Assembly (NCBI GenBank): GCA_035573895.1
Contig: DATLZR010000024.1
Span: 1-40,083, forward strand
Length of the DNA stretch: 40,083 nucleotides
Reading direction: 5' to 3'
From: Blastocatellia bacterium
GTDB lineage: Bacteria > Acidobacteriota > Blastocatellia > HR10
How positions within the stretch are numbered: the stretch's first letter is position 1; the number at the start of each line of letters is the position of its first letter. The position numbers and the translations under genes were made by a program. Positions 4,614 through 24,494 of the stretch are shown one piece after another. Below the pieces are notes generated by a model, which saw only the letters and a program-made list of their open reading frames with translations, did no database searches and was not told the origin of the DNA.

Positions 4614-6134
4614 TCAACTTTTCGTCCCCCGATCTTCGGCGCTTTTTCCCGAAGTCGCGCGCCAGGTGGCAAAATCGGGCAGATTCAACTCGGCCGCGAT
4701 GTCTCGCTGGCAGAGCACCGATACATAATCCTCCAGCGCCTGCTTGGACCAACGCTTGTAGAGGGCCCCCTGATCCGATCCGAGCAACTCCTTTTTCTTC
4801 GCCTCGCGCCGAGCTGCGTACTCCTCCGCCGGCACCGACTCAATATAGGCATCTACCGCCTTCTGCACGAACTCTTGATACGCCAATTCCTCGGCAGCCG
4901 TTGGCGCGGTGCTGGTCGGATTCGAGGGCTCGACAGCCGATTTCAGCGGTTCGGCCCGTCCATCTTTGATCAACGTCACTAACAGACCCGCGGGATTGAC
5001 AATCCCTCGCCCTCCCCGCGCCATCAGTCCGTCAAAGTAGCGAATCGTCGCTTCGACCGCTTCCAGGCTGTCTCGATTGGCTTCGACGATCTTCCTTGCC
5101 TGTGACGGGATGACCCCTCGCTCCACCAACTTTGCCACAAGCGCTTCCGCCTTCTCCTCCTCATCTTCCAGCGCTCGCACCGATTCGAACGGCAAATCAA
5201 GGGTGCGATACATTTGTTCGTCCGTCGTGTCGAACGGCTCATGCCGGGCGGCCTTCCCCTTGACGAACGAGATGATCCGCCCCTCGATCTTCCAGCTCCG
5301 CAAATAGCCTTCGTCGGTTAACTCCTCCAGCGCCGGTGTGAGCTGACGCGTAATCTCGGAAATGTAACGAAAGTTTCGACTCATGCCCAGGTGCTCGTGA
5401 GCCAGCTTGAAAATATCAATGGAAAACCTGTCGTCATTGCCGAATTTCTTATCCAGATAGCGGTAGAGCCTCCGGGATGTCGCCGTGCGCAAGCGAAAGT
5501 ACAGGTCTGTGTCGAGGAACTTGATGTAGCCACTTTTGAAACTCCGATAGAGCTGGTCGCTCCACATGATCCAACTCATCGGCTGCGATGCGCCGGCTTT
5601 GCGTCGTACCGTCTCATCGTAAAGGTGGTATCCCTGGATCAACGTGAATCCCACGGTGACATAGGCCCGCGCAGCATTGTCCCAAAAGGCATTCTGGGCG
5701 TGAATGAAAACATTGCTCAACCGCAGCAGCGATTCCTCCAACCGGCGGTAGCATTTCCCGCAGGGACACCATCCCAGACGCTTCACCAAATCATAGCGTG
5801 AAAACGGGACCTTCTGGTCGCCGAATCCCTGCTTCCGCGTCAGCTCCATGAGCGCCACATAGACGTCCTCGTCGGTCGAGGTCGGCAGTCCCACTTCTGA
5901 GCCCCCTTGAACCGTCCAGGTGCGGCGAACGATTTTCCCGTTCTCACCGATGATGGTGTCGCGGAACTTCAGCGAACGAATGTTTTTGGGAACACGCGTG
6001 TAAAGCGCCGCGATGGGAAAGACCGCGAGATTCATCTCATCCTTCCCCTCTCGCTCCTCTCGGGCAGTCTCAATCAAGACTGGCTGTCGTTCGCGAACGC
6101 TCGACTTGGTCCGTTTCCTCGCTCGCTTACTCAT
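4614..6134 (-). CDS. repA: Plasmid/chromid replication initiator protein, RPA (RepA) family
   Basis: Starting at ATG 6134 (SD AGGAG eight bases upstream), this 506-residue protein has a basic first 25 residues (SKRARKRTK). It then carries the RPA replication initiator pattern: NLAVFPIAAL, GLPTSTDEDVYVALMELTR, VPFSRYDLVKRLGW, YRRLEESLLRLSNVFI, SGYIKFLDTDLYFRLR and SRRLYRYLDKKF, followed by EHLGMSR and a winged-helix-like segment. The C-terminal 200 residues carry an AEALVAKLVERGVIPSQARKIV...NPAGLLVTLI segment, common in plasmid Rep tails. Such proteins bind iterons and open the origin. The frame extends upstream to 6380, but that part translates the AT-rich repeats and has no coding character. 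Upstream lie the AT-rich region, nine iterons, then parB and parA on the same strand. Confidence 0.88.
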   Translation of the reverse strand: MSKRARKRTKSSVRERQPVLIETAREEREGKDEMNLAVFPIAALYTRVPKNIRSLKFRDTIIGENGKIVRRTWTVQGGSEVGLPTSTDEDVYVALMELTRKQGFGDQKVPFSRYDLVKRLGWCPCGKCYRRLEESLLRLSNVFIHAQNAFWDNAARAYVTVGFTLIQGYHLYDETVRRKAGASQPMSWIMWSDQLYRSFKSGYIKFLDTDLYFRLRTATSRRLYRYLDKKFGNDDRFSIDIFKLAHEHLGMSRNFRYISEITRQLTPALEELTDEGYLRSWKIEGRIISFVKGKAARHEPFDTTDEQMYRTLDLPFESVRALEDEEEKAEALVAKLVERGVIPSQARKIVEANRDSLEAVEATIRYFDGLMARGGRGIVNPAGLLVTLIKDGRAEPLKSAVEPSNPTSTAPTAAEELAYQEFVQKAVDAYIESVPAEEYAARREAKKKELLGSDQGALYKRWSKQALEDYVSVLCQRDIAAELNLPDFATWRATSGKSAEDRGTKS

Positions 6135-6304
6135 AGGTCGTTCTCCTCTATGCAGTATCGTTGCCTTGGCGGTTGTTGATACCTCCCATGCGGGGACGAT
6201 GCCAACTGAATTGATTGCTCTTGGCTCGCTCTCGTCAGTGAGCCACCGTGGCGTCGGTTCCTCCAGAGATGGAAAAGTGCTGTCGCAGGTAACAACAAAA
6301 ACAG

Positions 6305-6340
6305 CAACAAGGGCAACAAGCAATGGATTTGCCCTTGTTG
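6305..6340. repeat. Inverted repeat CAACAAGGGCAA / TTGCCCTTGTTG
   Basis: Two 12-bp perfect arms at 6305-6316 and 6329-6340 are separated by 12 bp, inside the AT-rich part of the putative origin. The right arm overlaps the 22-bp palindrome that follows. Confidence 0.65.
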
Positions 6341-6356
6341 TTGTATACAACAACAA
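6335..6356. promoter_or_regulatory. 22-bp perfect palindrome in the putative rep promoter/origin
   Basis: The half-site TTGTTGTTGTA is followed directly by its inverse. The centre TGTATACA reads TATACA on the minus strand, a plausible -10, with TTGTTG 15 bp upstream. The palindrome would therefore overlap a rep promoter. Known Rep proteins of iteron plasmids often repress their gene through an inverted sequence there; here it does not resemble the iteron, so another factor (ParB or a host protein) is also possible. The leader to the Rep ATG would be about 200 nt. Confidence 0.5.
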
Positions 6357-6440
6357 ATACAACAACAAATAATACAACAAAAAAGCAAACGGCGTGCCAA
6401 AAATCTTTCGCCTAACAAGCGAAGGACCAGTACATTAGCG

Positions 6441-6632
6441 TTGTCCCCAATCCCAATAGTCTTGTCCCCAACCCCAATAGTCTTGTCCCGAACCCCAATA
6501 GTTCTTGCCCCGAATCCCAATATTTCTTGTCCCGAACCCCAATAGTTCTTGTCCCCAACCCCAATAAACTTGTCCCCAACCCCAATAGTTTCTTGTCCCG
6601 AACCCCAATAGTTCTTGTCCCCAACCCCAATA
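6441..6632. repeat. Array of nine iterons (replication origin)
   Basis: Nine copies of the 18-bp core TTGTCCCCAACCCCAATA start at 6441, 6462, 6483, 6505, 6527, 6549, 6570, 6593 and 6615. The spacing of 21-23 bp is about two helical turns, so all copies face one side of the DNA. Position 8 is C in copies 1, 2, 6, 7 and 9 and G in copies 3, 4, 5 and 8; copies 1 and 4 have T for C at position 11. The array lies between parB (ends 6677) and repA, next to an AT-rich stretch, the textbook layout of an iteron-controlled origin. Gaps of 3-5 bp between copies rule out CRISPR spacers. Confidence 0.9.
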
Positions 6633-6676
6633 ATGGCTTTTTCGTATCTCTTCGTTTGAACATCGCATTCCAGTAG

Positions 6677-7567
6677 TCACGAATCATCATCGCCGGCGAG
6701 AGACTCGATTGCGAGCTGAAGGGCGCGGGCAATTTGCACTTTAGAGACGTGGTATTTCTTGAAGGTCACCGTGACGGAGAAAGTTCGATCCTCCGGAGCG
6801 AAGCGAAACTGAAAGCGGCGACGTCTTGGGTTGCCTTTTGAGGGTTTGATCCGGCGCAGAGTCTTGACATTTATGGGTGTGCTCATGAGGCGGTTCAGGA
6901 GGGCTTCCATATCCGCCGGTGTCGGTTGCTGAGAGATGGCCAGCAGGTGTTCGCGGGAGGTTAGTCCCGACTCGAGGCAGCGGCGGCGCAAGGCCTCGGG
7001 AATGAGACTGAGCTTGAGGGTCTTGGAGATATACGTTCGACTTTTGCCGATAAGATGAGCGATTTGCTCGTGCGTGAGCCGAAACTCCTGCACAAGCAGG
7101 CGGAAGGCGTCGGCTTCCTCGAAAGGGGAGAGGTCATCCCGCTGGAGGTTTTCCACCAGTTGGTAGTACAGGCGTTGGCGCGGCGTGAGAGGATCCACGA
7201 CGATGCAAGGAACATCGCGGACACCGGCGAGCTGGGCGGCACGATAGCGGCGTTCTCCCGCGACAATCAGGTAGCAATCCTGGGTCGCATCGTACTGCAC
7301 AAGGAGGGGCTGAAGAATACCGTGCTGTTCGATGGAGGCAGCGAGATCGGTGAGAGATTTTTCGGAGAAGGTTTTCCTCGGTTGCGAGGGGTCGGCGACC
7401 AATCGCTCGATGGGGATGAGCCGGGCACCCTTCAGACGCGACGTTCCGGCAAAAGGGCCAGCCATGATGTCATCGGCGAGGTGAGCGCTGCGCTCGCCAA
7501 TCGAGGGGACCGAACTCAGGGTTTCTTCGGCCAGGTGACGGAATTTTTCCCGTTTCGACATGGTCAT
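6677..7567 (-). CDS. parB: ParB/Spo0J-family partition protein
   Basis: This 296-residue protein has the ParB N-terminal nuclease-like/CTPase domain with LIPIERLVADPSQPRKTF, IEQHGILQPLLV and the key GERRYRAAQLAG box (about residues 100-115). The conserved ENLQRDDLSPFEEADAF box follows, then a helix-turn-helix (LTHEQIAHLIGKSRTYISKTLKLS). The C-terminal 60 residues (RRRRFQFRFAPEDRTFSVTVTF) differ from chromosomal ParB dimerisation domains, as in plasmid types. ParB binds centromere sites and stimulates ParA. Its ATG overlaps the parA stop (ATGA at 7564-7567). No sequence matching the chromosomal parS consensus TGTTTCACGTGAAACA was noticed, so its site is probably replicon-specific. Confidence 0.93.
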   Translation of the reverse strand: MTMSKREKFRHLAEETLSSVPSIGERSAHLADDIMAGPFAGTSRLKGARLIPIERLVADPSQPRKTFSEKSLTDLAASIEQHGILQPLLVQYDATQDCYLIVAGERRYRAAQLAGVRDVPCIVVDPLTPRQRLYYQLVENLQRDDLSPFEEADAFRLLVQEFRLTHEQIAHLIGKSRTYISKTLKLSLIPEALRRRCLESGLTSREHLLAISQQPTPADMEALLNRLMSTPINVKTLRRIKPSKGNPRRRRFQFRFAPEDRTFSVTVTFKKYHVSKVQIARALQLAIESLAGDDDS

Positions 7568-8379
7568 GTCCTCTTGTCCCTCGTGGCCGTGCTGAGAGAA
7601 TCGCCCTCCGCCAGCGCCCGCGTGCGATCCAGAACTTCCGCTGCCAGGCGTCGGAACGTTTCGGCCTGCTCCGAGCGCGGCTGGTATAAGGTGATCGGGC
7701 TTTTCATCATGGCGGCTTCGGGGTATTTCACGCTGTCTCGGATGATCGTACGGAAGACCTGATCGCCGAGTTTGGCCCGCAGGGCATCAAGATAGCTCGT
7801 CTCCAGGCCACGGCGCAGGTCATACTTATTGATTACGTAGCCGAGGACGCGCAAGCGGGGATTGGCCCGGCGACGCACTTTCTCAATGATCTCCAGCAGC
7901 AATGCCGAACCCAGGGTTGCCCAGGGCTGACATTCGACGGGAATGATCACGCCGGAGGCCGCAACCAGTGCGCTGATTGTCATCAATCCGGAACTGGGTG
8001 GCGTATCAAGGATCATCACGTCGTAGCCATCAACCTCCTTAAGTTTATCCGAGACATAATACTGGGCATCATTATCACCGGCGAGTTGAAACTCGACCCG
8101 GCTCAGTTGCAAATTGGCCGGGAGAAGATCAATCCCCCGAAATGCTGTCGTTCGGATGGCCTCTCGGGTTGGGATGTCGGGAGTCGTGATTATATCGTAG
8201 ACGGTGGGCGCGAGTCCATAGGGATCTTCGATGAAAACCGAAGAGAGGTTGCCCTGCTGATCGAGGTCCACGAGCAGCACACGGTGGCCGAGATCGGCGA
8301 GGGCTCCGGCCAGATGGAGGGCGATGGTGGTCTTGCCCACGCCACCTTTAACCGTTGCGATGGCGAGAATCTCTGTCAT
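7564..8379 (-). CDS. parA: ParA-family partition ATPase
   Basis: This 271-residue protein has the deviant Walker A motif KGGVGKTT at residues 11-18, the VLLVDLDQQGN switch and MILDTPPSSG. That is the full set of a Walker-type ParA ATPase, which forms nucleoid-bound gradients that move ParB-DNA complexes. It has no N-terminal helix-turn-helix extension, so it is of the short (type Ib/chromosomal-like) form. The SD is AAGGA just before the ATG. It is the first gene of a parA-parB-origin-repA unit and has its own promoter and a TTCGCGCGAA palindrome upstream. Confidence 0.94.
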   Translation of the reverse strand: MTEILAIATVKGGVGKTTIALHLAGALADLGHRVLLVDLDQQGNLSSVFIEDPYGLAPTVYDIITTPDIPTREAIRTTAFRGIDLLPANLQLSRVEFQLAGDNDAQYYVSDKLKEVDGYDVMILDTPPSSGLMTISALVAASGVIIPVECQPWATLGSALLLEIIEKVRRRANPRLRVLGYVINKYDLRRGLETSYLDALRAKLGDQVFRTIIRDSVKYPEAAMMKSPITLYQPRSEQAETFRRLAAEVLDRTRALAEGDSLSTATRDKRT

Positions 8380-13331: not shown

Positions 13332-13565
13332 ATGAAGATGCTGAAACTTATCGTGAGCCTCTTAGCAGCTCTGGCGCTGGTGCTCGGAGGGCTCACCTCC
13401 GGTGGCATCGGGAAACAGGAGTACACCAAGAAGGAAAAGAAACCCTGCACGTTTTGTCATAGCTCGAAGAGTCCAAAGGACTATTCCGAGAAAGACCTGA
13501 CGGATGCCGGGAAGTACTACAAAGAGAAGAAGACGCTGGAAGGGTACAAACCAAAGGGTAGCTGA
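13332..13565 (+). CDS. Small secreted CxxCH (monoheme c-type) protein, copy 1
   Basis: Starting at ATG 13332 (SD GGGAGG), this 77-residue protein has a signal peptide (MLKLIVSLLAALALVLGG) and a basic stretch KKEKK. One CTFCH heme-binding motif follows (C39-H43), and the tail contains SEKDLTDAGKYYKEKKTLEGY. The mature chain would be only about 50 residues, below the size of ordinary class I cytochromes c. It has no Met or His after the motif to act as sixth ligand; Lys, Tyr or an open site are possible. A second copy follows 90 bp downstream and the heme-attachment gene ccsA is next. Heme attachment is inferred from motif, export signal and neighbour. Confidence 0.82.
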   Translation: MKMLKLIVSLLAALALVLGGLTSGGIGKQEYTKKEKKPCTFCHSSKSPKDYSEKDLTDAGKYYKEKKTLEGYKPKGS

Positions 13566-13655
13566 GAACCTGAGATCCCCAGCAGGACAACCGTCAGGCT
13601 TTCGTACGCGTTGGGGATAAGACATTGACCGAAAAGTTCACAAGGAGGAGTGGCG

Positions 13656-13883
13656 ATGAGAATCCTCAAGTTCGTTGCGGCAATCGTTGCTTTTGTTGCG
13701 TTGGCTATGGCGACTCTTATGCCGGGGGCAACGGCTAAGCCGGAATTCTCTAAGAAAGAGAAAAAGGCGTGTACCTACTGCCATACATCGAAAAACCCGA
13801 AGGAGTATTCGGAGAAGGACCTGACCGACGCCGGCAAGTACTACAAGGAGAAGAAAACGCTCGAAGGTTACGTGAAGAAGTAA
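13656..13883 (+). CDS. Small secreted CxxCH (monoheme c-type) protein, copy 2
   Basis: Starting at ATG 13656 (SD AAGGAGG, spacing 6), this 75-residue protein has a signal peptide (ILKFVAAIVAFVALAMATLMPGATA), KKEKKAC and a CTYCH motif at C39-H43. Its tail is nearly identical to that of copy 1 (EYSEKDLTDAGKYYKEKKTLEGY). The motif falls at the same residue in both, so this is a tandem duplication. The signal peptides have diverged far more than the mature parts, which argues for selection on the mature domain. The gap between the copies contains a 7-bp inverted repeat (13575-13581 / 13612-13618). Confidence 0.82.
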   Translation: MRILKFVAAIVAFVALAMATLMPGATAKPEFSKKEKKACTYCHTSKNPKEYSEKDLTDAGKYYKEKKTLEGYVKK

Positions 13884-14351
13884 GGTTTGTCTTTCCGGTC
13901 GGCACCGCGAAGATCCCGAGTCTGGGCCCCGGGGGATGTGCCTTGAGCTGAAACGGGGGTGCAGAAAGGGAGTGGCTGAGGAGTATCCTTTGTGCAGGCC
14001 GGGCTAAGGTGAGACGGACACAGCGCGTCCGACCGTAGCAGGACACCGACCGATGACAAGCGCCGTCCGGGTGGCAGGAACAGTCCGGCTGACGGAAGAT
14101 CAGTTCGCCAAAAGAGGGATCCTGTCGGATCGTCGAGGGTGAGCAGCTTCACCCGTAGTGCTGAACCCGGACATTGTCGGTCCATCCTGTGGCCACGCAG
14201 GGCAGCGCGAAGGTGCTTGGCGAAGAGGTTTCTGTAAGTCCTGGTGCCGGCAGGAAACAAGCAACAGCGGATTAATTGGCAGGGATAGACGCGGAGTGAT
14301 TAACGTATCCGTGTTGCTTCGTGAGCATCTGTGAGGAATCCGGAGGCGGCT
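13884..14351 (+). other. Long non-coding, stem-rich gap before ccsA
   Basis: About 470 bp with no supportable gene on either strand. Several inverted repeats suggest a structured transcript. They are GCAgAAAGG...CCTTTgTGC near 13970-14000, CGGAC-ACAGCGC-GTCCG near 14015-14031, CCGTC...GACGG enclosing CGG...CCG near 14065-14097, and GGGTGA-GCAGCT-TCACCC near 14138-14155. I do not recognise a known riboswitch, RNase P, tmRNA or SRP RNA core in it. It could be a leader RNA of ccsA, an sRNA, or decayed sequence. Confidence 0.35.
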
Positions 14352-15818
14352 ATGGGTGAGAAATCGCTCGCAGCATCAGTCATGGTGAAGCCTGAAGGGA
14401 TGGGGCGGGTTTTCCTTTTCCTTCTCCCGCTTATTCTGGCAGGATCCTATCTGGTCCTGGCCTGGCAGAAGATCGCTCCTTTACCGGAAAGTGAGACGGT
14501 GCTGGTCGTCCTGGCCCTGATCAGCTATACCGGGTCTGCCGTACTCTTCCTGGCATTCCTCTACCTGCAGGAGCGGATCCTGGAGCGGACGGGGATTGTC
14601 ACAGCGGCAGTGGGTTTCGGATTGAACGTAGCGGCGTGGGGAGCACGCGGGTTACTGGTAGGTCATTATCCGTTGAGCAATCTCTACGACACCTCGGTCT
14701 TTTTCGCGCTGGCGACAGCAGGAGCCAGCCTCTTGATCACAGCGATCTATCGCCACCGATACGTTGGCGTGTTAACCATGCCGGTGGCATCTGTGCTTCT
14801 CGTCCTGGCGCTGCTTTACGGCGGCGACGCCCAGGATCTTCCTCCTGTGCTCGTGAGCTTCTGGCGTCCCGTTCACGTCACTCTGGCGATGGCGGGCTAT
14901 GCGGCGTGTGCCATCAGTTTTGCCACGGCCCTTCTTTATTTGCTCAAAGATGGAGTCCGATTTGAGCTGTTCGGCATCTGCGCGATGGGCATCGTGCTGC
15001 TGACCTTCGCGTTGCTCTCGGACGGAGCCGTTCTCCGTCAAGGAGTGTTTTACGTCAACTTCGTGATCGGGCGCGAGCGGATTCCCCTTGATCCCGAAGG
15101 CAAGACCTTCGTGCACGCGGCGATCCCGGTGGTGGGGCAGCTCTTTCGACTGGCATTTCTCACCGCTGTTGTTTCGATCATGGGGCTGGTTGCTTCTTTC
15201 ATTGGATTCGGGCGGTCCGGGTTGATCCGGCGACTCGGTTACGTGATGGCGTGGGCGACGGGCCTCGTTCAGCTAGCCGGACTGGGGCTTCTCGCTTTCA
15301 GATTGAGACATCCTCTTCGGGGAGTGGATCTGATTGATCCAGCGCAACGGGAGATCATTCCGGCGGCATGGCTCCAGCAATTTGGATCGCGAATGGAATT
15401 GAGTCTTCGGGGGAATGCTCTGGAGATCGCGGCTGTGGTGGCGGCCTTGATGTTGACGGCGTTCGTCGTCTTCTTCGGCTGGAAGCTCGATCGGATCCTC
15501 GCTCTGGCTCCATCGCTGGAGGCACTTGATCACCTCACCTATCGCGCTGTTGCCGTCGCCTTCCCCCTGCTGACGTTGATGATTGTCACTGGTGCGGTGT
15601 GGGCCAATGAATCGTGGGGTCGGTATTGGGCATGGGACCCGAAGGAAACCTGGGCGCTTATTACCTGGCTCATTTACGCCCTTTTCCTCCATACGCGGAT
15701 CACGCACGGATGGAAAGGTCGTCGCGCAGCCCTGTTCGCTGTCCTCGGGTTCATCGCCGTCATGTTCACTTACCTCGGTGTGAGTTTTATTCTTCCGGGC
15801 CTGCACTCATACGCCTGA
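14352..15818 (+). CDS. ccsA: System II cytochrome c biogenesis (heme lyase) protein CcsA/ResC
   Basis: Starting at ATG 14352 (SD GGAGG, spacing 7), this 488-residue protein has many membrane helices. The N-terminal half has the CcsA-type segment GHYPLSNLYDTSVFFALA and WRPVHVTLAMAGYAACAISFATALLYLL with a conserved His. The tryptophan-rich heme-handling motif WGRYWAWDPKETWALITW is at residues 422-439, followed by HTRITHGWKGRRAAL with a further His. CcsA with CcsB/ResB exports heme and attaches it to CxxCH proteins on the outer side of the membrane. ResB is not in this window. The position after two tiny CxxCH genes suggests they are clients; the decaheme protein at 19.9 kb would be another. Confidence 0.92.
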   Translation: MGEKSLAASVMVKPEGMGRVFLFLLPLILAGSYLVLAWQKIAPLPESETVLVVLALISYTGSAVLFLAFLYLQERILERTGIVTAAVGFGLNVAAWGARGLLVGHYPLSNLYDTSVFFALATAGASLLITAIYRHRYVGVLTMPVASVLLVLALLYGGDAQDLPPVLVSFWRPVHVTLAMAGYAACAISFATALLYLLKDGVRFELFGICAMGIVLLTFALLSDGAVLRQGVFYVNFVIGRERIPLDPEGKTFVHAAIPVVGQLFRLAFLTAVVSIMGLVASFIGFGRSGLIRRLGYVMAWATGLVQLAGLGLLAFRLRHPLRGVDLIDPAQREIIPAAWLQQFGSRMELSLRGNALEIAAVVAALMLTAFVVFFGWKLDRILALAPSLEALDHLTYRAVAVAFPLLTLMIVTGAVWANESWGRYWAWDPKETWALITWLIYALFLHTRITHGWKGRRAALFAVLGFIAVMFTYLGVSFILPGLHSYA

Positions 15819-19869: not shown

Positions 19870-21918
19870 CTAGAATGACCGCGTATCCACGCGGGAGTGC
19901 GCCTTCCGCACGGAGAACTCTTTTCCTTCTCCGTGGCAGACGGTGCAGGATTCGCCGAAGCTCGTCGTATTCAACTGCGCGTGAGCCGCAGCGTCAACCC
20001 CATCGTGGCAGGAGGTGCACACGGCGGCCATCGGCTTGGTGGGGTTCATGAACCCGCGTGGAGTGACCGTGGGAAGGAGGTCTCTAGGCATTCGATCCAG
20101 CAACCAGGTGTCCGTTCGATGGCATTTCTCGCAGTTGCGACGATCGGTGGGATAGCGTACCTCGCTGAAGTCAATTCGCGTCCCCACGGCGGGCGGGACA
20201 GCAAACCCGTAAATGACATAAGGCTTGTTTTGCAGCTCTTCGCCCGTATGAATCTTGTGGATCATCACCCGGAAGTCCACCGTCTCGGCGGGCATGACGT
20301 CAGGTGTGCGACGGTTGGCATCCGTCTGATTCGGATTATGGCACAGGACGCAGTGCTCCACGCTGCCGATGCGGTTGGATCCATGTAGTGACAAGCGATC
20401 GTGGCAGGCATTGCACTTGGCTATGTCAACGACGGCGCGGCGAGCAACGGGGGCGCTATCGGTGACGGCGAAATACTTCACCACGTTCGTTCCGCCATCA
20501 CGATAATTGATTTCCTCGCCGTCCTTGTTGATCTTGACCACACGCCGACCTTCGATGCCGATGGCCCACGTTCCGACGGCATCGGTGGGAAGAGCCCGAT
20601 TGAAGGTGTAGGTGTAATTGCCTTTGTCATCGGTCGTGGCGCTCGCACGGGGATCTTCGCTCCACCACTGGCTGTAATCCTTCGTCGGCCCGGCGATGAC
20701 TAGAGCCAGCCGATCCAGCTGAGCCAGAGGAATGACATTTCCATTCTTATCCTTGACCGAGAACGTGACGACTGGCTTCTGCCCCGGAGCCGTGTTGGTC
20801 ACATTGACGATGTCGTAAACCAGTCCGGGCCACTGGCTCGACTGCCATTCGATCAGATGAGCGCCGGCCACCGAGAGCTTATCAAACTCGTTGCCGGGTG
20901 CCTGTGTGGGAGTATGGCAGCGCGTGCAGGTGGAGTCGGAGCGAGCGACGATTCCCGGTCCGTGATTGGCTCCCGTTTCCCAGTTAATGTCATCATGGCA
21001 GGAGCCACAGGAGGCACGGGAGAGCTGATTGAGGTAATGATCCTGTTGACTGGCCCCGGAATGGCACTTCTGGCAGTTGCGAATGTCGGTGGGGAACTCG
21101 ACGGTCGAGAAGTCATGGACCGTTTGGCGGAATCCGATAATTTGGTAGGGATTACCGGCACGCACACTCGGCAACTCGGCGCCTCGGTGAATCTTGTGAA
21201 TCATGACCTTGAAGTCAACCGTGTTGCCTGTATCGGGATCCGCCGTCTGTGGCGTGTGGCACAGCACGCAGGTCTTAACGTCATTCCATCGGCCTCCGTG
21301 AGCGCCCAGGTTATCATGGCACTGATTGCAGCTTGCCGTTCCGACGACATCTCGAACCACCTGGGGTTCCCCTCCCGCCGGGACGAAGGTGAAGGTGTCG
21401 TCGTCGTAGTAGGTCTTGCCGTCAAACGCCGTGAGATTGCGACTCGCTCCAACGGCAACGGTATGGGTCGCCGTCGCTTCGTAATTCTCCGGCAAGGCGG
21501 TGCGGAAGGTGTAGGTATATTTGCCATCGCTCAAGAAGGTGAAGGTTCCGCCCGAATCGGTCGTCGCTTGCTCAACGGTTCCCAGGACCGCTCCCGTCTG
21601 GGTGCGCACGGTATAGGCTGTGTACTGGGTTTCGTTGGGCTTGATTCGTGCGATGACAAACCGGGCATCCACCGGCCCCATGGTCGTGACGCCGTTAATG
21701 TCGAGTGGATTGCCCGCTCCATCGGCTACGCTGAATGTCACCACCGGACGGCGGTCCTGCGGAATCGTCACCGAGAGAATTTTCACCTGAAGCCCCGGTT
21801 GCGTAATGCGGTGGTACTGATCATAATCCTGGCTCTTACTCTCCTGGAGAAAGATGAGTGCAAAAACTCCGACAAATAGTAAGAAGGCGAGCCTCTTGAT
21901 CTTTGCCCGACTTTTCAT
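19870..21918 (-). CDS. OmcA/MtrC-family decaheme c-type cytochrome
   Basis: This 682-residue protein has a signal peptide (IKRLAFLLFVGVFALIFLQ) and no lipobox Cys. Ten CxxCH motifs occur in two pentaheme groups: CNQCH, CVLCH, CQKCH, CGSCH, CTRCH, then CNACH, CVLCH, CEKCH, CTSCH, CTVCH. Each group is preceded by a beta-rich domain (KILSVTIPQDRRPVVTFSVADGAGNPL and DIVNVTNTAPGQKPVVTFSVKDKNGNVI). VDFKVMIHKIHRGAELP and VDFRVMIHKIHTGEELQ are near-identical repeats, so the protein looks like an internal duplication. OmcA/MtrC proteins pass electrons to metals or partners outside the cell. MtrA/MtrB-type partners are not adjacent, and the absence of a lipobox differs from the Shewanella proteins. The SD is GGAGGAACCGGGAT before ATG 21918. 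Confidence 0.93.
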   Translation of the reverse strand: MKSRAKIKRLAFLLFVGVFALIFLQESKSQDYDQYHRITQPGLQVKILSVTIPQDRRPVVTFSVADGAGNPLDINGVTTMGPVDARFVIARIKPNETQYTAYTVRTQTGAVLGTVEQATTDSGGTFTFLSDGKYTYTFRTALPENYEATATHTVAVGASRNLTAFDGKTYYDDDTFTFVPAGGEPQVVRDVVGTASCNQCHDNLGAHGGRWNDVKTCVLCHTPQTADPDTGNTVDFKVMIHKIHRGAELPSVRAGNPYQIIGFRQTVHDFSTVEFPTDIRNCQKCHSGASQQDHYLNQLSRASCGSCHDDINWETGANHGPGIVARSDSTCTRCHTPTQAPGNEFDKLSVAGAHLIEWQSSQWPGLVYDIVNVTNTAPGQKPVVTFSVKDKNGNVIPLAQLDRLALVIAGPTKDYSQWWSEDPRASATTDDKGNYTYTFNRALPTDAVGTWAIGIEGRRVVKINKDGEEINYRDGGTNVVKYFAVTDSAPVARRAVVDIAKCNACHDRLSLHGSNRIGSVEHCVLCHNPNQTDANRRTPDVMPAETVDFRVMIHKIHTGEELQNKPYVIYGFAVPPAVGTRIDFSEVRYPTDRRNCEKCHRTDTWLLDRMPRDLLPTVTPRGFMNPTKPMAAVCTSCHDGVDAAAHAQLNTTSFGESCTVCHGEGKEFSVRKAHSRVDTRSF

Positions 21919-22364: not shown

Positions 22365-23429
22365 TCAAAAGGTGATGACGGCTTTGACGATTCGAGCTTC
22401 GGCCATTGCCCGGAAGGCTTCTGGTGTTCGGTGGAGAGGGAACGATTGGAGGTGAAGTTTCCTGGCCGTGATGATTCCTGCTGAGATCAACTCCAGGGCG
22501 CGTCGCGTATCGGGCGGCCCACAGGAATAGCTTGGTATCAGGCTGATCTCGTTCATGTAGAGGTGAAACGGCTCGATCTCGACCGTCTCACCCGGGGGAA
22601 GCGGTGTGAAGAGAATGATGCGACTGCCTCGCCCGGCACAGGCCAGGCCCAGGGCTACTGCTTCGCGCGATCCGGGACCGACGATAACGATGTCGGCCAG
22701 TTCTCCCCTGGTGATCTCGCGCACGCCTTCGATGACGGATTCGTTTAAGGGATTGAGGACAAGGTCGCAGCCCAGTTCCCGTCCGATTTGAATGCGCTGG
22801 GGAATCTTCTCAACGCCGATGATCGGATGAGCCCCCCAGGTCCTGCCCAGGAGCACGTGGAGCTGGCCCATGATTCCCAGCCCGATGACGACGAGGCTCT
22901 TGACATCTGGCCGAGCACCTGGCGGCGAACCCGGGACGGCGTCATCGCCCGGGGCGAGTCCAGCCTTTCTCAGCGATTTCACCACGCAGGCCGTTGGCTC
23001 GATGAGTACACCATCCTCGAACGAGACGCTCTCCGGCAGCAACAACGTGTCGGTCGCAAGGTTGGTCTCCGGCACGAGGAAATATTCGGCGATTCCCCCG
23101 GGAATGATTTTCGATCGCCTCCAGGTTTCGCAGAGGCTGTAGTCCCCGCGCCGACAGTGTTTGCACTCGCAGCAGGGAGCATGATGGTGGACAAACACAC
23201 GATCCCCCCTGCGAAATCCTCTGACGGCGGCTCCGATCTCGGCGATGATACCGACGGGTTCGTGGCCGAGAACGACGGGAGCTTTCCGTCGCACGTACCA
23301 GGGCATGATGTCGCTTGTGCAAATCCCGCAGGCTACGGTTTTCACCAATGCATCGCCCGGTCCGGGGCGAGGAATGGGTTCTTCCTCGATGCGAATATCG
23401 TCAACGTCGTACAACCGGGCGACCTTCAT
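22365..23429 (-). CDS. Zinc-binding medium-chain alcohol/polyol dehydrogenase, copy A
   Basis: Starting at ATG 23429 (SD AGGTGAGG), this 354-residue protein shows the MDR pattern: catalytic-zinc Cys in VACGICTSDIMPWY, GHEPVGIIAEIGAAVRGFRRGDRVFVHHHAPC, and the structural-zinc cluster CCECKHCRRGDYSLC. ILIEPTACVVKSL is present as LIEPTACVV, and the Rossmann glycine motif VIGLGIMG is in the nucleotide-binding half. It resembles sorbitol/threonine dehydrogenase-type enzymes that oxidise secondary alcohols with NAD(P). The substrate is unknown. A segment of about 15 residues (GDDAVPGSPPGARPDVKS) before the Rossmann fold is an unusual insertion. It lies 39 bp after the second dehydrogenase gene on the same transcript. 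Confidence 0.9.
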   Translation of the reverse strand: MKVARLYDVDDIRIEEEPIPRPGPGDALVKTVACGICTSDIMPWYVRRKAPVVLGHEPVGIIAEIGAAVRGFRRGDRVFVHHHAPCCECKHCRRGDYSLCETWRRSKIIPGGIAEYFLVPETNLATDTLLLPESVSFEDGVLIEPTACVVKSLRKAGLAPGDDAVPGSPPGARPDVKSLVVIGLGIMGQLHVLLGRTWGAHPIIGVEKIPQRIQIGRELGCDLVLNPLNESVIEGVREITRGELADIVIVGPGSREAVALGLACAGRGSRIILFTPLPPGETVEIEPFHLYMNEISLIPSYSCGPPDTRRALELISAGIITARKLHLQSFPLHRTPEAFRAMAEARIVKAVITF

Positions 23430-23468
23430 TGGCCTCACCTGTCGCGGGACGCCACGCTCGTGGTCCGT

Positions 23469-24494
23469 TTAGGGAATGACAGCATACTTCACGCAGTCGC
23501 CCCGTTGGAGGAGATCGAAGACTTCCAGGAGCCGAGTCAGTGGGAACTGCCCCGTAATGAGTTTGCCCACTTCGATCCGATTATCGCAGAGCAGTTCGTA
23601 GGCTTGCCGAACGGCGCGCCGGGTGTAGTGAAACGGGCTGATCAATGTGATCTGGTCATAGTGAATGCGGGCTGTATCCAAAGCGATCGTCGTACCCGAG
23701 GGGCACCCGCCAAACAGTACGACCTGGCCGCCGCGGCGCACAAGGGAAATCGCCTGTTGCCAGACTTCGGGCCGACCCGTGCACTCGATGACGATGTCAG
23801 CTCCCCGCCCGTCGGTGACCATCCGCACAACCTCCGCTGTATCCTCATGGTCAGCATCAATCACAATACTGGCTCCCAACTCGCGCGCCAGCCGGAGACG
23901 AAACGACCGCCGACCGGAAACCACAATATGACGCAGGCCAAACACACGCAACAACAGTACGTGCATGAGCCCGATGGCTCCCGCACCGATGATCAAAACC
24001 GTGTCGTCGCGGTGAAATTTCAAGAAACCGAGCCCGTGAACGACGCAAGCCAACGGCTCCAGTATCGCCGCTTCAGTGAAAGCCAGGTTCGGCGGTTTGG
24101 GGAACATGTTCTGCTCGACGATATGAGCCGGAACCTTGATGTACTCGGCGTACGCGCCCAAAATCTTGGCCGACATCGTCAGGTCGCAGAGATTGTCCTG
24201 TTGCTGCTGACAGTAGTAGCAGCGTCCACAGGAGGCCGAATGGACCGACATCACGGCATCACCTTCGCGGAACTGTCGGGTTCCACGCCCGACATCCGCG
24301 ATCTCACCAGAAAATTCATGACCAAAAAGCGTCGGCATCGGCATTTTGGGGTGGCCGCGCAGGTACGCCTTCAAATCGGTCCCGCAGGTCAGTGCCGCCC
24401 GAATCTTGACGACCACTTCGCCTGGACCCGGCGTGGGCTTTTCGACCTCTCGCAATTCCAGCAGCCCTGGACGAACAAGAACATTGGCTAGCAT
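23469..24494 (-). CDS. Zinc-binding medium-chain alcohol/polyol dehydrogenase, copy B
   Basis: Starting at ATG 24494 (SD AGGAG, spacing 8), this 341-residue protein has the catalytic-zinc region ALTCGTDLKAYLRGHPKMP, GHEFSGEIADVG and the structural-zinc cluster CGRCYYCQQQQDNLC. ILEPLACVVHGL and the Rossmann motif IIGAGAIGLMHVLLLRVFG follow. It is of the same group as copy A, but the two have clearly diverged, so they are likely an old duplication or a functional pair rather than a recent copy. They could act on successive or epimeric sugar alcohols. It is the first gene of the two-gene unit, divergent from the cupin gene. Confidence 0.91.
   Translation of the reverse strand: MLANVLVRPGLLELREVEKPTPGPGEVVVKIRAALTCGTDLKAYLRGHPKMPMPTLFGHEFSGEIADVGRGTRQFREGDAVMSVHSASCGRCYYCQQQQDNLCDLTMSAKILGAYAEYIKVPAHIVEQNMFPKPPNLAFTEAAILEPLACVVHGLGFLKFHRDDTVLIIGAGAIGLMHVLLLRVFGLRHIVVSGRRSFRLRLARELGASIVIDADHEDTAEVVRMVTDGRGADIVIECTGRPEVWQQAISLVRRGGQVVLFGGCPSGTTIALDTARIHYDQITLISPFHYTRRAVRQAYELLCDNRIEVGKLITGQFPLTRLLEVFDLLQRGDCVKYAVIP

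Follow-up and report, generated by a model that had tools for sequence, protein, structure and literature searches.

Tandem genes for predicted minimal c-type cytochromes, stand-alone relatives of the Cyc2 heme module, in a Blastocatellia bacterium

Two small proteins under constraint

The window analysed here, the whole 40,083-nucleotide stretch of Blastocatellia bacterium DNA, carries on its forward strand two neighbouring open reading frames of fewer than 80 codons, each with a single CxxCH motif. Are frames this short real genes, do their products carry heme, and is there any known heme protein to which they are related? A reading made from the sequence alone had placed a tandem pair of tiny CxxCH proteins at 13332–13883, and both frames are found there. 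Copy 1, a predicted secreted mini c-type cytochrome of 77 residues, runs from an ATG at 13332 to 13565 (stop included), and copy 2, predicted to be of the same kind and 75 residues long, from an ATG at 13656 to 13883 (stop included). A GGAGG-like ribosome site stands immediately 5′ of each frame, and the two proteins are 61% identical. Both begin with a signal-peptide-like stretch of 27 codons (13332–13412 in copy 1, with probable cleavage after G27; 13656–13736 in copy 2, ending ATA), and the heme-c motif follows as CTFCH (13446–13460) in copy 1 and as CTYCH (13770–13784) in copy 2. With the cleavage sites placed by eye according to the −1/−3 rule, not by a signal-peptide predictor, the mature chains are predicted to have 50 and 48 residues, a pI of 9.4 and 14 lysines each. 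Apart from the one CxxCH, neither mature part has a His or Met, so that the chains of about 50 residues with one heme motif and no Met/His sixth ligand, as first described, hold up.

The proteins end in a tail of 22 residues, YSEKDLTDAGKYYKEKKTLEGY, which is identical in both copies (13482–13547 and 13806–13871, same strand). In the DNA encoding it, 9 of 66 nucleotides differ between the copies, all at third codon positions; chance does not give such a pattern, which points to real, constrained proteins and bears out the strong conservation claimed for the tail. In the core, dN is 0.031–0.064 and dS 0.82–1.21 when copy 2 is compared with five relatives of the same family. Both frames are real proteins under constraint. 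A structure prediction of the window protein, made without heme, has a pLDDT of 56 and a pTM of 0.23, and its fold is uninformative, also as regards the three-helix fold around heme of class I cytochromes.

An unmodelled acidobacterial family

Neither window protein reaches any Pfam or NCBIfam cut-off. The family search that the sequence-only reading proposed does find relatives, in two acidobacterial lineages, one Blastocatellia-like and the other Bryobacterales-like. The family profile, A2, is an alignment of 18 mature sequences out of the family members seen, with invariant columns that include C, C, H, L, G, K and G. It matches 12 of 58 related genomes at E ≤ 1e-3, 8 of these (G000–G007, the core carriers) at E < 1e-10, and 26 of 396 genomes of the phylum at E ≤ 1e-3, 6 of these at < 1e-10. 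The named relatives (10 loci) come from bins and metagenome-assembled genomes, namely HRbin10, HRbin08, JZ-3, an uncultured Blastocatellia bacterium and Bryobacterales/Solibacter-type assemblies, and those with an informative title are all acidobacterial. The window protein has no match at E up to 10 in the plasmid collection searched, and PDB searches with the single protein and with A2 return weak CxxCH-driven matches and a chance-looking match to parkin. The window proteins thus belong to an unmodelled family of minimal cytochromes, and to our knowledge they would rank among the smallest natural monoheme cytochromes.

Tandem pairs occur in 4 of the 10 relative loci (L029–L032). A tree of 19 rows, with 6 of its 16 inner branches unresolved, separates a Blastocatellia side from a Bryobacterales side with support of 96/99. 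The window pair falls on one side and the pairs of L029–L032 on the other, in different supported clades; on at least two occasions, then, pairing originated or was retained.

Class I cytochromes c (PF00034/PF13442) resemble the window proteins in having a single CxxCH near the mature N-terminus, predicted secretion, small size and a basic character, but they are about twice as long and possess the distal Met/His region that the window proteins lack. Pfam class I models give no match to the window proteins at E up to 10, and the score of A2 against a class I profile is reached by 32 of 60 shuffles; for this control 16 of 30 class I loci were used, the script having found no in-frame CxxCH in the others. 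A distal Met or His C-terminal to CxxCH is present in neither window copy and conserved in none of the positions of the 18 aligned members. On these results we reject membership in class I. The proteins are, as had been proposed, smaller than class I cytochromes and without a Met/His sixth ligand, and with System II genes in the genome they are candidate carriers of the heme-c type.

Kinship to the heme domain of Cyc2

Each window protein can be read as a single heme module of about 38–50 residues. A short basic stretch at the N-terminus leads up to CxxCH; after it come a loop whose length varies, an L-[N/T]-x-x-G-K segment with a helix prediction, and Gly-Tyr/Ala at the end. In an alignment of 25 diverse members (A7), six positions are invariant, C, C, H, L, G and G, a pattern like the one published for the heme domain of Cyc2. 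According to the accessible text of PMC8406198, Cyc2 has a heme-carrying domain with the motif AXPXFAR[Q/K][T/Y] upstream of CXXCH and PXL downstream, and the Cyc2 of Mariprofundus oxidises Fe(II). Searching with this published motif, we find Cyc2-like heme domains in 110 of the 396 acidobacterial genomes, where almost all of them open a frame of about 380–1000 codons, and also in 9 plasmid records. As an observation in its own right, 110 of 396 is more than we had expected for putative iron-oxidation genes.

The comparison of profiles links the two groups. The Cyc2-like profile, A3, holds 18 of 20 fetched loci (L084 and L087 were left out), and A4 holds stand-alone intermediates between A2 and A3; the null was made by shuffling columns around the fixed C, C and H, 200 times. 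The hhalign score of A2 with A3 is 36.9, against a null with a mean of 19.6, a standard deviation of 2.8 and a maximum of 29.9, and none of the 200 shuffles reaches it. The same holds for A2 with A4 (49.5; 0 of 200) and for A4 with A3 (49.6; 0 of 200). When a Cyc2-like HMM ranks 317 CxxCH windows, the 24 Cyc2-like windows come out on top and A4 directly after them, with members of the window family lower down and mixed with some multiheme sites. Copy 2 scores 13.8 bits, level with several multiheme sites, and the direct link to Cyc2 therefore rests on the profile–profile comparison together with the intermediates. On these alignments we regard the module and the heme domain at the N-terminus of Cyc2-type cytochrome-porins as homologous, the link being strong through the A4 intermediates and moderate directly, and the window proteins as a known heme module in stand-alone form, not a wholly new kind. 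The suggestion of a new minimal heme carrier thus stands in so far as Pfam and NCBIfam have no model for it, but falls if "new" is taken to mean without kin.

The window proteins share with the Cyc2 heme domain the length before CxxCH, an Ala/Gly at position −12 from the first Cys, and the L-[N/T]-x-x-G and G-Y/G-F positions. They differ in having no porin, being 75 and 77 residues long as opposed to at least 365 residues with a fused 16-strand porin. The strict AXPXFAR[Q/K][T/Y] is absent, the corresponding stretches being, by eye, AKPEFSKKE in copy 2 and GKQEYTKKE in copy 1, and PXL is replaced by KDLT, since in the module the Leu is invariant and the Pro is not. The window proteins are also Lys-rich, with a longer loop after CxxCH and a KKTLE insertion. 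Lacking the porin and the strict motif, they are not Cyc2 itself. The published FeGenie rule leaves out proteins shorter than 365 residues, as given in the accessible text of PMC8406198, and by that account short stand-alone forms would be filtered out; marker searches filtered by length miss the wider module family. A literature search, to which subscription papers were mostly outside, found no paper describing stand-alone Cyc2-like small proteins.

Two further comparisons extend the picture. A7 matches the N-terminal heme stretch of OmhA, ATEQYAKDTGKNCSYCHQVP, at 22.2 bits and an i-Evalue of 7.8e-4 over the library. OmhA, the undecaheme cell-surface cytochrome of Carboxydothermus ferrireducens (PDB 6qvm, as identified in a table of PMC12203936), differs from the module in its 11 hemes and its chain of 681 residues, and it is the first half of the module that aligns with this stretch, whereas the second half, LTERG-like, gives a weak alignment at the site that follows. 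A group of more distant cousins (alignment A5; L018, L046 and L051–L058) comprises unmodelled CxxCH proteins of about 65–70 mature residues that end in DxxWLKxY and occur across Acidobacteriota, several in tandem copies. Their profile scores 51.5 with A2 (null maximum 31.9), and they differ from the window family in their longer N- and C-terminal parts. With the Cyc2-like profile they score 25.5, which 11 of 200 shuffles reach, and a direct Cyc2 link for these cousins is not separable from the shuffled null.

Architectures carrying the module

The module stands alone in the A2 and A4 sequences, and in the Cyc2-like frames it fronts a long, presumably β-barrel part. It also lies within a five-heme protein (L043). 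In two loci, a single predicted secreted protein holds two tandem modules (L071:7754–8311 and L072:7905–8504, both on the reverse strand). In same-order genomes (G006–G009) the module precedes a class I cytochrome c domain (L115, L125, L127 and L128), and at L073:2531–3457, on the reverse strand, it fronts a CopD-like membrane region and a cytochrome b5 domain (PF05425, PF00173).

Fixed N-terminal spacing

Counting back from the first Cys, all 20 target windows and all 24 Cyc2-like windows have Ala or Gly at −12, as do 17 of 18 other windows with the module. This spacing is fixed, unlike the gap after CxxCH, which varies. In many members this residue occupies −1 of a plausible signal-peptidase site, which would leave 11 mature residues ahead of the first Cys. 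Five of the 20 target windows have Pro at −3, which is atypical of a signal-peptidase site, and these five may be uncleaved anchors. The spacing, as read from the alignments, would fit a structural part played by the N-terminus, ligation included, but is no proof of one. More specifically, and as a long shot, the proteins might be the free form of a distinct, so far unmodelled class of minimal heme module. Its 11-residue spacing would then reflect ligation of the iron, in the sixth position, by the amine of the mature N-terminus or by a Lys close to it. Such amine ligation would resemble that of cytochrome f, and a literature search on it gave nothing usable. If this were so, a reducible six-coordinate heme would fit in fewer than 50 residues with no distal half, and the module, which also occurs alone or doubled, would serve for electron entry where it is joined to porins, to membrane proteins, to class I cytochromes and possibly to multiheme cytochromes.

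System II and the neighbouring ccsA

Downstream of copy 2, and on the same strand, lies ccsA (14331–15818), which encodes a CcsB/CcsA-type cytochrome c synthase subunit of System II with 495 residues (TIGR03144, 1.7e-69). The pair does sit next to ccsA, as had been noticed, but the gap is 447 nucleotides and an operon is not supported in this genome. ResB is encoded on another contig. Three other PF01578 frames in the genome read, from length alone, as CcmF-, CcmC- and HemX-like, so the window ccsA appears to be the genome's own CcsA and is likely to mature other cytochromes as well. Nor should the short chain hinder heme attachment, to judge from the accessible text of PMC8112865, in which CcsBA attaches heme in vitro to CXXCH peptides as short as 9–11 residues.

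Across genomes, ccsA adjoins the mini-cytochrome gene in all six genomes of family f1, and in L025 and L026 the gene lies within about 50–70 nucleotides of the longest ccsA reading frame. G006 and the Bryobacterales-type loci examined lack this linkage; flanking genes there encode a CBS-domain protein, a glycosyltransferase with MshEN, or other products. The linkage to ccsA is thus complete within f1 and lost in these other loci. Maturation by the adjacent CcsA as a special pairing does not survive this distribution, and we dropped such a partnership as a general rule and kept it for f1 only.

Multiheme cytochromes in the surroundings

On the strand opposite to the gene pair and 6 kb from it, the window encodes a decaheme cytochrome of the OmcA/MtrC family with 10 CxxCH (19870–21918), a candidate redox partner by context only. 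No redox gene forms an operon with the pair. Among genomes, OmcA/MtrC (TIGR03507) is found in 7 of 8 core carriers, the exception being G005 (73% complete), and in 2 of 50 other relatives examined. The co-occurrence with multiheme cytochromes, which the sequence-only reading had proposed to check, is confounded by phylogeny, as all 8 carriers belong to one order and the association may reflect shared descent.

The arrangement varies between carriers. The two genes are on different contigs in G001–G004. In G006, OmcA/MtrC lies 7.5 kb from the mini cytochrome and is followed by NrfH-like and DmsE-like cytochromes, and the same stretch holds an 11-heme/b561 protein and a class I cytochrome. G007 has a second copy about 20 kb off; OmcA/MtrC and two decahemes of the DmsE/GSU2203 type share its contig. 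Around the Bryobacterales-type genes lie a glycosyltransferase gene or unrelated ones, which counts against the role proposed below. Separately, at L066:11222–13366, on the forward strand, 11 CxxCH are fused to a cytochrome b561 domain (PF14522, PF01292) in a protein that adjoins an OmcA/MtrC–DmsE cluster.

Proposed role

With the gene pair, its selection, and the homology, distribution and fusions of the module in hand, we favour the reading that the two proteins are paralogous stand-alone heme modules of the Cyc2 type, matured by System II and working as periplasmic one-electron carriers, and consider it probable, with appreciable room for doubt. The two paralogous minimal c-type cytochromes would be secreted or N-terminally anchored. 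After export, System II, composed of the window CcsA and the ResB encoded elsewhere, would attach the heme. The His of CxxCH would be the proximal ligand, and the distal site may be open or filled by Lys, Tyr, the N-terminal amine or a partner. The small basic protein would then shuttle one electron in the periplasm, most plausibly from inner-membrane oxidoreductases to multiheme conduits of the OmcA/MtrC kind.

The main rival is a split Cyc2-like system, in which the mini cytochrome would be the separate heme plug of an outer-membrane porin or other membrane partner and fold only in complex. Homology to the Cyc2 heme domain suits this reading, as does the frequent fusion of the module to longer proteins elsewhere. 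The accessible text of PMC8406198 reports that in E. coli the porin was expressed but the Cyc2 cytochrome domain by itself was not, so a lone module may need a partner. We nonetheless find the split system unlikely, as no porin family match appears among the scanned window proteins, which cover part of the window's frames, and no Cyc2-like protein was found in G000, G001, G002 or G006. An open distal face could bind O2, NO, CO or peroxide, in which case the protein would be a small peroxidase, a gas binder or a sensor that uses heme; outside CxxCH, 10 of the 18 family members lack His and Met altogether, and none is common to all. Here the fusions seen point the other way, being with electron-transfer or membrane proteins and in no case with signalling or catalytic ones, and 14 Lys in 48–50 residues could ligate the iron, and we hold such a function to be distinctly improbable.

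The contiguity with ccsA in family f1, close in L025 and L026, is what would be expected of an accessory factor of cytochrome c biogenesis, a thiol or heme relay working with CcsA. Yet neither G006 nor the Bryobacterales-type loci keep the linkage, three genomes (G008, G009 and G010) have ResB and no core-family match, and the His of CxxCH is invariant where a thiol relay would not need it, so that we give this role little credence. CxxCH alone is no proof of heme; the motif could bind zinc, possibly at a site shared between subunits, or form a disulfide. This we judge the least probable reading, and a very remote one, because the proteins are predicted to be secreted, C-C-H is invariant in 25 of 25 A7 rows, the genome has System II, and the homologous module carries heme in Cyc2, in the accessible account of PMC8406198.

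If the window proteins are indeed periplasmic one-electron carriers, acidobacterial electron-transfer chains gain a candidate soluble carrier. Cyc2 is a marker of microbial iron oxidation whose heme domain is hard to study for want of expression without the porin, as set out in the accessible text of PMC8406198. Natural stand-alone relatives of 43–52 residues would offer a handle on the heme ligation and potential of that domain.

Other features of the window

A 567-codon open frame at 22788–24488, on the forward strand, has no Pfam match and, read as protein, was judged to be a spurious antisense frame. On the reverse strand, 4617–8379 encodes a replication initiator (PF10134 RPA, 4.4e-16; a weaker match to TrfA), then ParB and ParA, and about nine iteron-like direct repeats of 22 nucleotides stand between the initiator and ParB/ParA, at 6433–6634. 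The contig that holds the initiator, the repeats and ParB/ParA also holds housekeeping-type genes. The 4617–8379 region may be where a second replicon or chromid has its origin, or it may be an integrated plasmid.
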